Positions 32,393 through 38,412 of a stretch of 38,412 nucleotides of DNA are shown piece by piece. Position 1 is the first letter of the stretch, and every line of letters begins with the position of its first letter. Origin of the DNA: Methanomicrobiales archaeon (GTDB lineage: Archaea > Halobacteriota > Methanomicrobia > Methanomicrobiales > Methanospirillaceae); assembly GCA_025350045.1 (NCBI GenBank), contig JANXYM010000018.1, forward strand, positions 1 to 38,412, in the 5' to 3' direction. The position numbers were made by a program, and so were the translations under genes. The notes beneath the pieces are model-generated. The model had not been told where the DNA came from and did not search any database. It saw only the letters and a list, made by a program, of their open reading frames with translations.

Positions 32393-32554
32393 GTGGAGAG
32401 GCTTGAGGTTAGAGAACTTGAGTCGGCTAGGATTACGAAAAAAAGATACGAGCGGACTTTTTCTTTCAGAAATCGACTTATGCAACCATTTCTTCAACCG
32501 ATGTTCTCGTCAAAGATTTTTCCGTTCCTATCCATAAAAAATCAAAAACTCTAG
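32393..32554 (+). pseudogene. Possible 5' remnant of an interrupted gene
   Basis: GTG 32393 opens VERLEVRELESARITKKRYE, with GGGAG about 7 nt upstream and a TATA-like CATTTATTTT (32362-32371). The frame runs on into the 3' end of mcrC (antisense) and stops at 32554. The first about 27 residues look protein-like and the rest is the reverse of mcrC, as if a gene had been cut by insertion of the restriction island. Weak; it could be chance. Confidence 0.25.
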
Positions 32555-33833
32555 AGAGTTCGCCAATGAATTTTTGAACCTCCTCCTCTTTTGATAAATC
32601 AAAATGCAATGGGATCGTTTTCACATAGAGCGTGATTGATTTTTTAACTCCGAGTTTGAGCATACGGTCAATTTGTGTATTAATTCCTTCAGGATACAGA
32701 AGTATTGCAGTGTTTGATCCGGATTCTTTACAATATGTGAACATCTGATAGAGATCTGACTGTGAGATTTTATTTTTACTATCCTCGGAATCAAGCATTT
32801 TGTATTTCGTATCGAGGATAATCCGTTGCGGCCCATTGAGGAATACATCCACCATCATTTGGAATAATTCACGATCTTCATCAAAGACCAGAGCGCCAAT
32901 CCTTTTTTGGATATGGATATTTTGACGATATTCCAACGGCAAGATCTCCGGATTATTAACGAGCATTTGTGCAATAAATTCTTCAAATAATTTCTCCATG
33001 GGGATCATGAGTGAGAAAAATTCAACCTGGGATGCCTGGAGAGTGAGCGTCGAACGACGTAAGAACAGATCACAAAATCTGATGTAAGGAACGAATGTTT
33101 TGTTGAGCCGGTTAAATGTGATCTTCTTGATTTCTGATGGATGAATTTGTGTTAAATTTGTAGCATCCAAAAGGGATATGATATATTTCAAATATCGATT
33201 CGTTTCTTGACTTTTTACTTGTTTTGACAATAAAAATGCTGTGTATTTTATTGTCTGGTTCAGGAGTGTATCCATACTTCTTTCATGAAACCTGCAGGGA
33301 ATTATATGAAGACGAGCAGGATTCGAAGAATATTGAGCAGTAATGATCTTCTCTCTTACAAAACGCAATTCATCATCATGTTTAAGATATTGGCGATCTT
33401 GTTGGTTCTTGAGAAGATGTGCAAGATTTTTCGCAAAAAGGTAGATAAAAACTTCCAGGAAATCATTTTTTATATCCAGATCAGCGCTATCCAGTTCTTT
33501 GAAATTGAATAAATTTGAATGTTGCAGCATGTAGAGGAGATTATTCATTATTTTCGTTTTATCGGTCTGGATATCTCCGTCTTCAAAAAATTTTGGAAGA
33601 ATCTCAATTTTTAGATTACCAATCTTTGCAACACCCGCGAAATTACGTGCTTTAAGGTAATCATGGTGAATCTCTAAAAAATTTACATCATTTGTGAGAA
33701 TTTCAAGTTGATCCAAGGATTTTTCGGTAATGAATACAGCATTTTCTTCCTTATTCAATCCCTCATCTTTTGGATCCTTACATACCCTGTAGACGATCCT
33801 TCCATATTCCTGGAGCGTTATGAGATCTTCCAT
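32478..33833 (-). CDS. mcrC: McrC-type nuclease subunit of a McrBC system
   Basis: 451 residues. McrC proteins supply the PD-(D/E)XK endonuclease and stimulate the McrB GTPase. LTLQEYGRI-like start LITLQEYGRIVYRV, KIGNLKIEILPKF (DUF2357/McrC N-terminal style), MEKLFEEFIAQML and the nuclease core MVDVFLNGPQRIILDTKYKM, with Asp329, Asp341 and Lys343 as expected catalytic residues, are visible. It lies 13 bp after mcrB on the same strand, the normal order. Codon use is AT-rich compared with the upstream operon. Confidence 0.93.
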   Translation of the reverse strand: MEDLITLQEYGRIVYRVCKDPKDEGLNKEENAVFITEKSLDQLEILTNDVNFLEIHHDYLKARNFAGVAKIGNLKIEILPKFFEDGDIQTDKTKIMNNLLYMLQHSNLFNFKELDSADLDIKNDFLEVFIYLFAKNLAHLLKNQQDRQYLKHDDELRFVREKIITAQYSSNPARLHIIPCRFHERSMDTLLNQTIKYTAFLLSKQVKSQETNRYLKYIISLLDATNLTQIHPSEIKKITFNRLNKTFVPYIRFCDLFLRRSTLTLQASQVEFFSLMIPMEKLFEEFIAQMLVNNPEILPLEYRQNIHIQKRIGALVFDEDRELFQMMVDVFLNGPQRIILDTKYKMLDSEDSKNKISQSDLYQMFTYCKESGSNTAILLYPEGINTQIDRMLKLGVKKSITLYVKTIPLHFDLSKEEEVQKFIGELSRVFDFLWIGTEKSLTRTSVEEMVA

Positions 33834-33846
33834 TTTTCACACCAGG

Positions 33847-35418
33847 CTATTTCGTCATTGTCACGGCTTGAAGTGCTTCGATGATGTCATCTTCCGTTTT
33901 CAAAACAAAAGATGAACCTCTTTTTTCAAAGAATCGATTATTGGAGATATATAGCAATTTTTCAGGGCTGTCGTAAAAGTATTCCTGGAGAAGCGGGATT
34001 ATTTCATATTTCCAGATATTTGTCAAGGTTTCTTTCGTTTCTTCAACTGAGGTATCCAGTGATAATTTCACGAGATAACTATGACCAATCTGGTGATCTC
34101 GATCATATATTTCTGTTATTTTGTCATTCACGCTTTTGAGAGATTGGATGGCGAGACGTCGATATTCCTTCACATCTTCAGACCGGTTCTGATCATTTAT
34201 CAGTATCTTCGTGAGTACGTCATAATCCGGTAATAATTCAATAAAACCAAATCTTCGTCGTAAGGCAATATCCATAAGACTGATACTTCTATCAGCAGTA
34301 TTCATCGTCCCCAGGATGAACAGGTTAGGGGGGATACCAAATTCCATTTTGGAGTAGGGAAGTATACACCGGATTTCGTTATCAGAAAACAAGCGCTTAT
34401 CAGATTCTACGAGAGTAATAAGTTCCCCGAATATTCGGGAAATGTCCCCGCGATTAATCTCATCGATGACGAGATAACACGGGACCCTCTCAACTACTCC
34501 CTTGATTTTTTCTATTTCTTCCAGGGAGAATGTTGGTACCGGGAATTGATCCTGCCATCGCTTGTCAATTTCTGCAACATCAAGAAGAGCATTCAGTGCT
34601 TCACGAGATGCACGTTTGAAAATGCCCTCTTGAATTTCATAACGGATATCTCCCCCATCATCTGCATTTGGACGGAGACCTTCAATGAATTCTTCATATG
34701 CATAGCTCGGATGGAATGTGACGAAGTTGCAGGGACTTATTTTTTCAGTCTGTTCTACAACTGCAATATCGAGATCATTCAACGAAACTTGAGCTAATTC
34801 AAGGAGTCGCAATCCCTCTTGGGGTGTGAGAGAAAACAATGTACCTAATGCTTTCTTGCGTACAGGTTTTGAATTCTGGAGAACAGAATCAGCAGAGATG
34901 GTTTTCCATTCAGGACCTTGAACAGGTTTAATACCTCGAATAAATACGTTGGGAACACCTTCTTCGTAGAATCCTTTTCGAGAACAGGTAGCGAGTCCAT
35001 ATAATCGGCCACCTTTTCCAGGAACATAAATAATTACAATATCCCCCTCTGTAATCTCGTCATAAGCACGGTGTTCTTGCCCATACCATATTTCGCTTTC
35101 TTCCTGTTTTTCCAATAAAACATCTAATGATTGAGGTTCATCCCAACTCTCTAACTTTGTAGTAAACCAGAAGAATTTTTTGTCAGTATCAATCTTTATC
35201 ACACTTATATCGGGAATATTTCTTGATTTTATGAAATTATTTGCGATCCAGGTTTTACCCGTACCGGGCGGGCCATAAAGGATAACCTGTTTCTTATAAT
35301 CCAGAACATTTTGGATTTTTGTAAACATTGGATTAGCAGGTTGTCGCGGTTTTTGTCGAATGCGATCGTTGAACTCCTTCTCAGAAATTGACTTTACTTC
35401 TGGTTCTGTTTTCCCCAT
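33847..35418 (-). CDS. mcrB: McrB-type AAA+ GTPase with EVE-like domain inserted after Walker A
   Basis: 523 residues. Only about 45 residues precede Walker A GPPGTGKT (49-56), so the usual N-terminal DNA-binding domain is missing. The strand that normally follows within about 30 residues, FVTFHPSYAYEEFIEGLRP, comes at 232. Between them, residues about 82-207 read KFFWFTTKLESW, EIWYGQEHRAYDEITEGDIV, YGLATCSRKGFYEEG and RKKALGTLFSLTPQEGLRLL, which match the EVE (PUA-like) modified-base reader. Walker B is CYLVIDEINRGD (314-325), the McrB signature MNTAD is 372-376, and an arginine triplet lies at 387-389. It is a motor that translocates DNA (or RNA) for McrC. GGAGTGA precedes ATG 35418. Confidence 0.92.
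   Translation of the reverse strand: MGKTEPEVKSISEKEFNDRIRQKPRQPANPMFTKIQNVLDYKKQVILYGPPGTGKTWIANNFIKSRNIPDISVIKIDTDKKFFWFTTKLESWDEPQSLDVLLEKQEESEIWYGQEHRAYDEITEGDIVIIYVPGKGGRLYGLATCSRKGFYEEGVPNVFIRGIKPVQGPEWKTISADSVLQNSKPVRKKALGTLFSLTPQEGLRLLELAQVSLNDLDIAVVEQTEKISPCNFVTFHPSYAYEEFIEGLRPNADDGGDIRYEIQEGIFKRASREALNALLDVAEIDKRWQDQFPVPTFSLEEIEKIKGVVERVPCYLVIDEINRGDISRIFGELITLVESDKRLFSDNEIRCILPYSKMEFGIPPNLFILGTMNTADRSISLMDIALRRRFGFIELLPDYDVLTKILINDQNRSEDVKEYRRLAIQSLKSVNDKITEIYDRDHQIGHSYLVKLSLDTSVEETKETLTNIWKYEIIPLLQEYFYDSPEKLLYISNNRFFEKRGSSFVLKTEDDIIEALQAVTMTK
34798..35175 (-). other. EVE-like domain inserted in McrB
   Basis: This covers McrB residues about 82-207. The order aromatic strand FFWF, WYG, GDIVIIYVPG, LYGLATC and the closing GTLFSLTPQEGLRLLEL follows the EVE domain. 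In E. coli McrB the same junction is only a short turn. Boundaries are by eye. Confidence 0.7.
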
Positions 35419-35424
35419 ACAAAA

Positions 35425-36498
35425 TCACTCCATATTATCATCTGTTACAGGTTCTTGCATTGCAGTGTTTTTCCATTCAATTTGTCGATACACAGGAAAT
35501 TCTTGAGAGTAACCATATATTGGACCAGATTTGATAATTCCCCAACCCAAATCTGATTCTCCGTGATCGATAAGTACATAGTGCCCCTCTTTCATCTTTT
35601 GTAAAAAATTTATGATGTTGTCGGTTTCCTTCTCTGAATTTGGATCTTCGGGATATGCATCTTTATATAGTTTTTTTATTTCATCCTCTGACATTCCAAG
35701 AATTTTTTCACCAGCCGACTGGAACACTTCCTTAAAACCAATAGCTATGATTTTGTTCTTCTTCCATTCGTCCCACATTGTTGCATTTTCCCCGAGGGAA
35801 ATCTGCCAATAATATCGAGGGGGAACTGGATTAATGTGTAAAGAAGTGATTTTAAAAACTTCTAGCAAATTATCGAAGGTTTCAGTAATTTTTTCTTCGA
35901 TGGTATCATCAATATCGGATTGATAAATCTCTTTACCAATCCAAATGTTATTGGACCAATTTTTGATTAACTCCTCAAATGTAACAATTTTTATGGGATT
36001 ACCATCTGATTCAATTATAATTTTGTCATCATTTTGTGAATAATCAAATAATTTCCTTAGTTCATTCGTCCATTCTCTCCCTCGTTGAACGTAGTCACTA
36101 TCCTCTTCCACCAAACTACCATAACTAAAACCAATACGAATAAAATCGGGTCCAATCATTATTTGGAGAAAAGGAAAAAATCGGACGGGTATTTTCTCGT
36201 TAATAGGTACATTGCTGTATATACGTACTTCTGTGGTGGCGAAGACCATTCGGGACGGGTGAAAATGAAAGCTTTGAACTTTGAAATTAAGTTGAAGATT
36301 ATGGTCATTGACATACTTTTTTGCATAAGTTGCCAGGATTAAATTGGAAGTCTTGCCATACTTTTGTTTAAATTTCTCAATTTTTGGCTTGTAGACCGTT
36401 TTGTATTTGTGTAAATTTTCTTGGACAAGAGTATCTATCTTCTCGAAATTTTTCGCGAGATCCATGGTGGCAGATACCATCTCTCTGGTAATGATCAA
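35425..36498 (-). CDS. Predicted specificity partner of McrBC with C-terminal PUA/EVE-like domain
   Basis: 357 residues, not a named family by eye. Residues about 20-65 form a basic amphipathic helix (KYKTVYKPKIEKFKQKYGKT), and 75-150 a beta-rich part (PSRMVFATTEVRIYSN, VRFFPFLQIMIGPDFIRIGF, REWTNELRKLF) resembling the N-terminal modules of some McrB proteins. Residues about 229-345 (YYWQISLGENATMWDEWKKN, IIAIGFKEVF, FLQKMKEGHYVLIDHG, GWGIIKSGPIYGY) fit the PUA-like/EVE-like reader found at the N-terminus of other McrB homologues. It ends 6 bp before mcrB, so the specificity part appears split off. The start TTG 36498 has GAGGT 7 nt upstream; ATG 36480 lacks a site. Confidence 0.75.
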   Translation of the reverse strand: MIITREMVSATMDLAKNFEKIDTLVQENLHKYKTVYKPKIEKFKQKYGKTSNLILATYAKKYVNDHNLQLNFKVQSFHFHPSRMVFATTEVRIYSNVPINEKIPVRFFPFLQIMIGPDFIRIGFSYGSLVEEDSDYVQRGREWTNELRKLFDYSQNDDKIIIESDGNPIKIVTFEELIKNWSNNIWIGKEIYQSDIDDTIEEKITETFDNLLEVFKITSLHINPVPPRYYWQISLGENATMWDEWKKNKIIAIGFKEVFQSAGEKILGMSEDEIKKLYKDAYPEDPNSEKETDNIINFLQKMKEGHYVLIDHGESDLGWGIIKSGPIYGYSQEFPVYRQIEWKNTAMQEPVTDDNME

Positions 36499-36716
36499 AC
36501 AATCAACCTCTGATACTGTGCTTGTTAATTCCGAGATGCTTAACCTTTTGGATTTATTTATTTTGGGAATGAATTATTGATTTTTAATTACACAACTGAT
36601 ACATAAATGTAGGATTGATTATGTTGATTATCCACTAACCTTCCTTCCATTCACCAACATGAGTTGAAATTATTTATTTTTCCTTTGACTTCGAACAATT
36701 ATTCCAAAAAAGGAAT
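36499..36716 (-). promoter_or_regulatory. AT-rich leader/promoter of the McrBC operon
   Basis: AT-rich 218 bp. AATAAATAAATCC (complement of about 36550-36562) is a TATA box for leftward transcription with a start near 36525. No gene is seen. Confidence 0.4.
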
Positions 36717-37508
36717 TTACCATTCTTCTCTTTCTATCATCAAAGGCATTTGACCATGGTGTTTTACGAATTCTGTTTTTAATTCAGCCGCGTATTTTTT
36801 TGGATAGTCACAGACCATCCACCCAAAGTCCAGTTTCCAGTTATACTTCAGCAATGCCCACACATAAAAATGAGTAGGGTGGCAATACGCAAGTTCCCGG
36901 TATTTGTCTGCAAGGGTTTGCCGGCTTTCCGGGTTCGTCCCTGCATGACCGATATATAAAATCGGACAGTTTGACATATGTACAATCTGATCCAGGCGGT
37001 GGGAAAAGGCGTGTTGCATCGCCTTCCATTTGATCTCGCAGATCTCCCCAGTCAATTCATTGGAAATCTCACATTCATCTGTCCCTCGCTTTTGCACTTT
37101 AATAACAAAAACACCGGGTTTTTCCGGAGGGTGTGCACTTTTGATATCCTGATATTTGAAATCATTAAAAATATCAAGACTGCAATTTTGTTCTACCGAA
37201 TCAATGCCCCCCCGGTCTTGTGCCTGGAACTGATAATAGTCATTACAACCGTCATTGATTACCAGAATAATTTTGCATCTGGATACCATTTCACGGAAAT
37301 GTACTATTTCGTTGTTCAAATTTTCATTTTCTGAAGAAATTCCTTTCAAAGCCTTTCTGAGTGTGACTAAATCTTCAGTGTAACCATTATCAAACAATTC
37401 CCGAAAGACACGTCGTTTGTTTCCCAGAAAATCCATCAATGCTTCGATTCCCGCGAAGGCTTCGAATTCTCCGATATATCCGTATGCGTCATCTATATGA
37501 TAATCCAT
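36717..37508 (-). CDS. GIY-YIG-like protein of the defence island
   Basis: 263 residues. The C-terminal half holds the elements of a GIY-YIG fold: PGVFVIKVQKRG (GIY position, 131-142), CPILYIGHAGTN (YIG, 185-187), ESRQTLADKYREL with Arg196, and YAAELKTEFVKHHGQMP with Glu242 as the likely metal ligand. About 45 residues separate the first two motifs, which is long. The N-terminal half (1-110) is acidic and helical with no recognised domain (ALMDFLGNKRRVFRELF). It could be a nuclease effector or a repair/anti-phage factor; being in the AT-rich island next to McrBC supports a defence role (inference). The start MDYHIDD has GGAG about 7 nt before it. Confidence 0.7.
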   Translation of the reverse strand: MDYHIDDAYGYIGEFEAFAGIEALMDFLGNKRRVFRELFDNGYTEDLVTLRKALKGISSENENLNNEIVHFREMVSRCKIILVINDGCNDYYQFQAQDRGGIDSVEQNCSLDIFNDFKYQDIKSAHPPEKPGVFVIKVQKRGTDECEISNELTGEICEIKWKAMQHAFSHRLDQIVHMSNCPILYIGHAGTNPESRQTLADKYRELAYCHPTHFYVWALLKYNWKLDFGWMVCDYPKKYAAELKTEFVKHHGQMPLMIEREEW

Positions 37509-37746: not shown

Positions 37747-38412
37747 ATGGACAATCTCACTGCACTTATCAAACACGGCGAAAGCGAGATCGTGGAATTC
37801 AAAGAGCAGTGGAACGACCACGGTCTTGAAGCACTCGCCTCATTTGTCAATACCAAGGGCGGGGCCCTCATTATCGGGGTAAGGGATAACGGAACGGTCA
37901 TTGGTTGGACCGGTGATGACCGGGCACAGCAAACCATCATCAACCAGATTGTCGAAATTCTCCGGGTCCAGCCATCGGTCTCTGTCCAGCAGGAAAAGAA
38001 AAAATCCGTGCTTGTTATCGAAGTCAGGCCCGGTACCACTCTTGCCACATGTCGGGGCAGGTATTTTCAGCGCGTAGGCAACACAACCCGCGAGATCCCG
38101 GCAGAGCAGCTCGGGCGTTACTTCATTACAAAACTTGGGGTTCAATGGGACAGTATCGCTGACAACTGTACCCTTGAGCAGATCGATCCCACAGCAGTAA
38201 AACGCTTTCTCGAACTTGCAAAAAACCGGCTCCCGTTTGCCCGCGATGATGAATCTGTTGAGAGCCTCCTGCAAAAACTCGAGTTAATCCGGGACGGAAA
38301 AATTACCCGTGGCGCAATACTGCTGTTTGGGAAAAATCCCCAGGCATCATTCACCTCTGCCCAGATACACATGGGCCGGTTCAAGGACGCCATTACCATC
38401 ATCGATGACAAA
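37747..38412 (+). CDS. AlbA_2 (Schlafen-like) transcriptional regulator/ATPase, 5' part
   Basis: 222 residues to the window edge, open at the 3' end. KHGESEIVEFKEQWNDHGLE is the ESxxLEFK-type start, and SFVNTKGGALIIGVRDNGTV and VIEVRPGTTLATCRGRYFQR complete an AlbA_2 domain (about 8-125), which in Schlafen proteins has nuclease-like fold. From about 140 on, DNCTLEQIDPTAVKRFLELA and ITRGAILLFGKNPQASF match the usual middle region of 'RecG-like/ATP-dependent DNA helicase' annotated AlbA_2 proteins. Many are regulators and some are defence effectors. GC content returns to that of the core genome here, so it may not belong to the island. Confidence 0.88.
   Translation, partial: MDNLTALIKHGESEIVEFKEQWNDHGLEALASFVNTKGGALIIGVRDNGTVIGWTGDDRAQQTIINQIVEILRVQPSVSVQQEKKKSVLVIEVRPGTTLATCRGRYFQRVGNTTREIPAEQLGRYFITKLGVQWDSIADNCTLEQIDPTAVKRFLELAKNRLPFARDDESVESLLQKLELIRDGKITRGAILLFGKNPQASFTSAQIHMGRFKDAITIIDDK

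Follow-up and report, generated by a model that had tools for sequence, protein, structure and literature searches.

A McrB protein that appears to hold a reader domain within its AAA+ fold raises the question of what this domain does: whether it only helps to select the DNA that is attacked, or whether it has become part of the motor. One such protein is encoded in the window analysed here, which is the whole stretch of 38,412 nucleotides. The host is a methanogenic archaeon, because its genome encodes the methyl-coenzyme M reductase alpha subunit; a search for archaeal 16S gave no match, and the gene is probably missing from the assembly.

The mcrB gene of the window is an intact open reading frame (33847-35418; minus strand, as are all features of mcrB, mcrC and the upstream reader gene given below), and its product of 523 aa is read as a McrB AAA+ GTPase with an internal EVE domain. 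The initial annotation had also identified it as McrB, and our searches agreed. The protein matched PF07728 (2.1e-12, Pfam), and its best sequence match was the McrB of Thermococcus gammatolerans (TgMcrB, 6UT3; 1.1e-65, phmmer), to which it aligned in three blocks (query residues 33-64, 220-275 and 313-504). Consistently, the AlphaFold2 model of the whole protein (pLDDT 82.5) gave 6UT5 as its best structure match (7e-24, Foldseek). Walker A (GPPGTGKT, residues 49-56; 35251-35274) was located by alignment to the Walker A of TgMcrB, and the TFHPSYAYEEFIEGL motif (residues 234-248; 34675-34719) by alignment to TgMcrB and to a set of 17 sequences. Walker B (DEINRG, residues 319-324; 34447-34464) and the McrB signature NxxD (NTAD, N373-D376; 34291-34302) are invariant in 17 relatives, and Walker A, Walker B and NxxD are all intact and invariant or nearly so among them. 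The protein thus combines the AAA+ core, the Walker motifs and the NxxD by which a McrB is recognized. Its match to NCBIfam NF008457 (7e-37) is below a cut-off that is specific for E. coli. Membership in the CoCoNuTs, the NxD branch of McrB with fused long coiled coils, was ruled out, since the motif of the window protein is NxxD; no coiled coil was predicted, and the model has no coiled-coil N-terminus.

The gene located 13 nt downstream of mcrB (32478-33833) encodes the McrC nuclease subunit (451 aa), which covers the full PF10117 model (9.5e-64) and provides the adjacent mcrC (DUF2357/PD-(D/E)xK) of a McrBC pair; its match to NF007277 (1e-25) is below the cut-off of that model. Judged by homology, the methanogen carries at this locus a McrBC restriction system of type IV (modification-dependent). 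The GC content is 35-41% across the cassette (32478-37508) and 56-60% in the flanking housekeeping genes. The low GC suggests that the cassette was horizontally acquired, as would be expected for a defence cassette gained in this way. An AT-rich open reading frame of 263 aa lies upstream of McrBC (36717-37508); it has a GIY-YIG-like C-terminal stretch (LYIG...KYREL) and gave no match in a Pfam search. Another one, on the plus strand (37747-38412), runs off the end of the window and looks by eye like an AlbA_2/Schlafen-type, putatively DNA-binding, protein.

No N-terminal DNA-binding domain had been seen in the protein at first. This is correct for the mcrB reading frame alone, which has 48 residues before Walker A versus 273-664 in complete insert-bearing relatives, but the reader region is present in an adjacent, in-frame open reading frame that ends 6 nt upstream (35425-36498; 357 aa, TTG start). 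Its product is probably a separate N-terminal reader subunit, as indicated by homology to the N-termini of fused McrBs and by a match of its residues 230-346 to PADLOC PDC-S02 (1.5e-8). The N-terminal half is homologous to the N-termini of two fused McrBs (L084 and L086), and the C-terminal half to a PUA/EVE-like domain that several McrBs, among them L093 and L098, have at their N-terminus. For the N-terminal half, Pfam and PDB searches gave no match, and a resemblance to DUF3578 is a visual impression only. A profile of the C-terminal half found no match in the PDB, and hhalign aligned this half partially with EVE (91.7% probability, 80 columns).

The two reading frames are separated only by one TGA and 6 nt. 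The N-terminus is fused to the motor in all relatives that have not lost their start at a contig edge, except L091, whose own N-terminus is broken, and sequence similarity continues across the linker. These observations would fit a decaying locus, in which the TGA is a recent nonsense mutation or an assembly error that cuts a fused McrB, some 880 residues long, into fragments. We regard this as rather unlikely. The TGA sits in a good ribosome-binding-site-like GGAGTGA (35425-35431), which overlaps the upstream stop and precedes the ATG of mcrB by 6 nt, an arrangement known from translationally coupled genes, and the upstream frame, mcrB and mcrC are otherwise intact. The N-terminal readers appear to have been kept, either as the product of their own gene or as a part severed from McrB by a recent stop or an error of assembly. 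Decay concerns the split only, and is compatible with the explanation of the insert that we prefer below.

Where the extra segment enters the motor was examined by sequence alignment and in the predicted structure. The initial annotation had pointed to an unusually long spacer after Walker A, and 185 residues were indeed counted from Walker A to the start of TFHPSYAYEEFIEGL (residue 234), versus 26-38 in insert-less members of the subfamily. About 155-160 extra residues separate the Walker A helix from the VTFHPSYAYEEFIEG strand, where TgMcrB is continuous: query residues 33-64 correspond to residues 14-45 of the 6UT3 chain and query residues 220-275 to residues 44-102, which are adjacent blocks. 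The segment without counterpart in insert-less relatives covers approximately residues 71-229 (34732-35208), and it has predicted flanking strands at 71-78 and 220-227, which may pair into a stalk. In the AlphaFold2 model the Walker A helix has 12 residues (H55-66) and the next core strand is E230-234; the chain passes from the C-terminal end of the former into the insert and rejoins the core at the start of the latter. By AAA+ topology, this predicted insertion site is at the end of the sheet distal to the P-loop and does not adjoin the nucleotide. This result does not support the earlier placement of the EVE domain beside the nucleotide pocket, since the insert exits from the Walker A helix at its far end, away from the P-loop. 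A misassigned Walker A, which could have made the domain N-terminal in the true fold, was also looked for and ruled out: the motif aligns to the Walker A of TgMcrB and is joined directly to the strand in insert-less relatives.

The best 50 Foldseek matches of the whole model were AAA+ proteins only; therefore the insert was folded alone. AlphaFold2 predicted it with high confidence (pLDDT 90.2, pTM 0.87) and with its elements in EVE order. In the PDB, the EVE proteins 2GBS, 1ZCE and 2AR1 together with THYN1 (5J3E) were the leading Foldseek matches (TM 0.59-0.74, with 0.67-0.74 for the best matches among the EVE proteins), and ASCH and YTH domains ranked after them. A coiled coil or a disordered segment was ruled out by the pLDDT of 90 for the isolated domain. 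Structure prediction had been proposed as the check on the EVE-like reading, and the insert was predicted to be PUA/EVE-like.

Sequence profiles were also compared. The isolated insert matched PF01878 (EVE) with an E of 6e-4 and 20.1-20.3 bits, below the 23-bit cut-off, which is a curation threshold; the EVE domain is defined here by the fold test. PF01878 matched 14 of 20 homologous inserts (best 2.9e-12), and three inserts located at the same site in other McrBs (L117, L120 and L125) were above the cut-off with 28-46 bits. EVE matches were also found in 9 of 17 full-length relatives from the phylum of the window (best 1.5e-6). A profile of the inserts, which takes in three bacterial ones that are clear EVE domains, matched the EVE structures 1ZCE (8.5e-6), 2GBS and 2EVE (1.2e-4) over nearly the full length. 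Taken together, the Pfam, profile, AlphaFold2 and Foldseek results predict that residues 82-208 (34795-35175) form an EVE domain internal to the AAA+ fold, as had been proposed from the sequence.

The aromatic base pocket of EVE domains consists of P24, W82 and Y130 in VcaM4I (PMC7897488), and of W26 and Y82 in 2EVE. By eye, W111 in the W-x-G motif of the window insert matches W26 of 2EVE. The other pocket positions sit in variable loops, so the pocket may have been emptied, and the modification that is read is not predictable because only the W-x-G aromatic can be placed. This bears on the reading that the EVE insert has lost base reading and is now a structural or protein-interaction element, which may for example dock the upstream reader, McrC or another ring. 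Such a role would suit the separate polypeptide that carries the N-terminal readers of the window, which must somehow join the ring, and the inserts, which are only 21-47% identical to each other. However, many relatives with the insert have fused readers, so the docking of a free reader is not its general role, and the GD, Y and W-x-G signature positions are retained in most inserts. We consider such a structural or interaction element highly unlikely.

McrB relatives and their motif spacings were surveyed in 232 genomes of the class, in 393 genomes drawn from the phylum and in 348 genomes of the Anoxynatronum phylum, with the window McrB as bait, so that proportions among them do not represent population frequencies. 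A search for other McrBs with insertions at this site had been suggested along with the annotation, and it was successful. At least 15 further genomes of the window's phylum encode McrBs with the same insert at the identical site, and an EVE domain occupies the same site in a separate McrB subfamily (L117, L120 and L125, each from a different genome of the Anoxynatronum phylum). The same EVE family is found at the N-terminus of other McrBs (L130, L132 and L138). In the window subfamily the spacing is 175-191 residues with the insert and 26-38 residues without it, at the same place.

Two further kinds of insert were seen among the McrBs. An EVE-like insert occurs at a second McrB site, between the GIFK helix and Walker B, in L004, L006, L012, L109 and L110, and also in L111, L113, L114 and L118; these second-site inserts are related to the C-terminal domain of the protein encoded upstream of the window mcrB. 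A different domain of 120-147 aa is found at the first site in six or seven McrBs (L002, L003, L048, L049, L070, L071 and L104). By eye it is possibly winged-helix or HARE-HTH-like, and the two of these inserts that were searched against Pfam matched no family.

A tree of the AAA+ core, with the insert left out, grouped the 27 rows of the window subfamily into one clade with a support of 99. Insert-positive and insert-negative McrBs are mixed within this clade; the well-supported branches by themselves require a minimum of three gains or losses of the insert, and the best tree requires seven. The clearest pair is L041, which bears the insert, and L047, which lacks it and has an open and intact reading frame; the two are 92% identical over 408 aligned columns outside the insert. 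The motor thus tolerates both presence and absence of the insert, because McrBs of both kinds intermingle and this pair is nearly identical. As far as sequence comparison can tell, the EVE insert behaves as an exchangeable module that is cleanly absent from L047.

These data help to decide whether base recognition by the internal EVE domain could directly control GTP hydrolysis in the same subunit, as an allosteric switch. The insert is tied to the Walker A helix and to the next core strand, so a mechanical link is conceivable, and several McrB subfamilies have different domains at this site. But topology places the connection points at the sheet end remote from the P-loop, and the insert is gained or lost cleanly while the motor stays 92% identical; we consider the switch very unlikely. 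In published work on E. coli McrBC, DNA binding and GTP hydrolysis are described as separate in vitro, and the stimulation of the GTPase is attributed to McrC. A specificity module is favoured over an obligatory allosteric part because near-identical motors occur cleanly with or without the insert. Based on sequence, model and analogy, the locus is probably a type IV McrBC system whose insert serves as a specificity module or additional reader, and not as a regulator built into the nucleotide pocket.

If the insert is such a module, McrB would form the GTP-driven ring and McrC would be the nuclease, with the two flanking strands carrying the EVE domain out from the ring. The domain would bind DNA and flip out the modified base, by analogy with VcaM4I, a reader of 5mC/5hmC in which base flipping by EVE is established (PMC7897488), and the internal EVE would add a second reader to the one encoded upstream. 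Base reading would recruit the complex to modified foreign DNA or hold it there, and GTP-driven movement and cleavage by McrC would come next, as they do in known McrBC. RNA binding and other roles also occur among EVE domains. PcdA, an EVE-McrB relative, serves cell division (PMC10602043).

Several known systems share parts of this arrangement. McrBC of T. gammatolerans (PDB 6UT3-6UT8) has the AAA+ ring, Walker A and B, NxxD, the TFHxSYxYEEFIEG strand and the McrC partner in common with the window system, but its reader is an N-terminal YTH domain and no insert follows the Walker A helix. VcaM4I (PMC7897488) is likewise a type IV restriction enzyme that reads modified bases through an EVE domain, and base reading in the window protein is proposed by analogy with it; unlike in the window, its EVE domain is at the N-terminus, the fusion partner is an HNH nuclease, and there is no NTPase. 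In EVE-McrB fusions, EVE and McrB are joined in one protein as they are here. Bell et al. (2020, PMC7641849) describe EVE-McrB in their main text as the commonest EVE architecture in defence systems, found in nearly 300 genera, whereas that text does not state an internal position. According to the main text of Bell et al. (2024, PMC11090510), McrB GTPase domains often hold insertions that are likely specificity domains, and the window protein is a case of this kind, while this text gives no insertion site and does not name EVE for the inserts. The insertion site is stated in none of the main texts of the McrB papers found. The internal placement, which had been thought possibly new, nevertheless recurs in many genomes, and inserts in McrB GTPase domains were already reported in 2024 in the main text just cited. 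The internal EVE of the window McrB is a further case of known modular restriction systems, shared with close relatives and distant bacteria.

A broader reading is that McrB rings in general exchange domains at the turn that joins the Walker A helix to the next core strand, and that different readers were inserted there independently because DNA engagement at this point is transmitted to the motor. We find this unlikely. If it were true, the site would hold EVE in methanogens and bacteria and, in other subfamilies, the different domain of about 130 aa, and the window system would read with an EVE domain inside the ring and with readers on a separate subunit.

In conclusion, an exact insertion site, a confidently predicted fold and a natural pair with and without the insert (L041 and L047) are now given. 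With these it can be asked whether a reader placed inside a AAA+ restriction motor acts on specificity alone or has control over the motor as well. Annotation of McrB by its N-terminal domain misses readers, and predicting which DNA modification is attacked by a McrBC system requires that internal and separately encoded readers are both counted.
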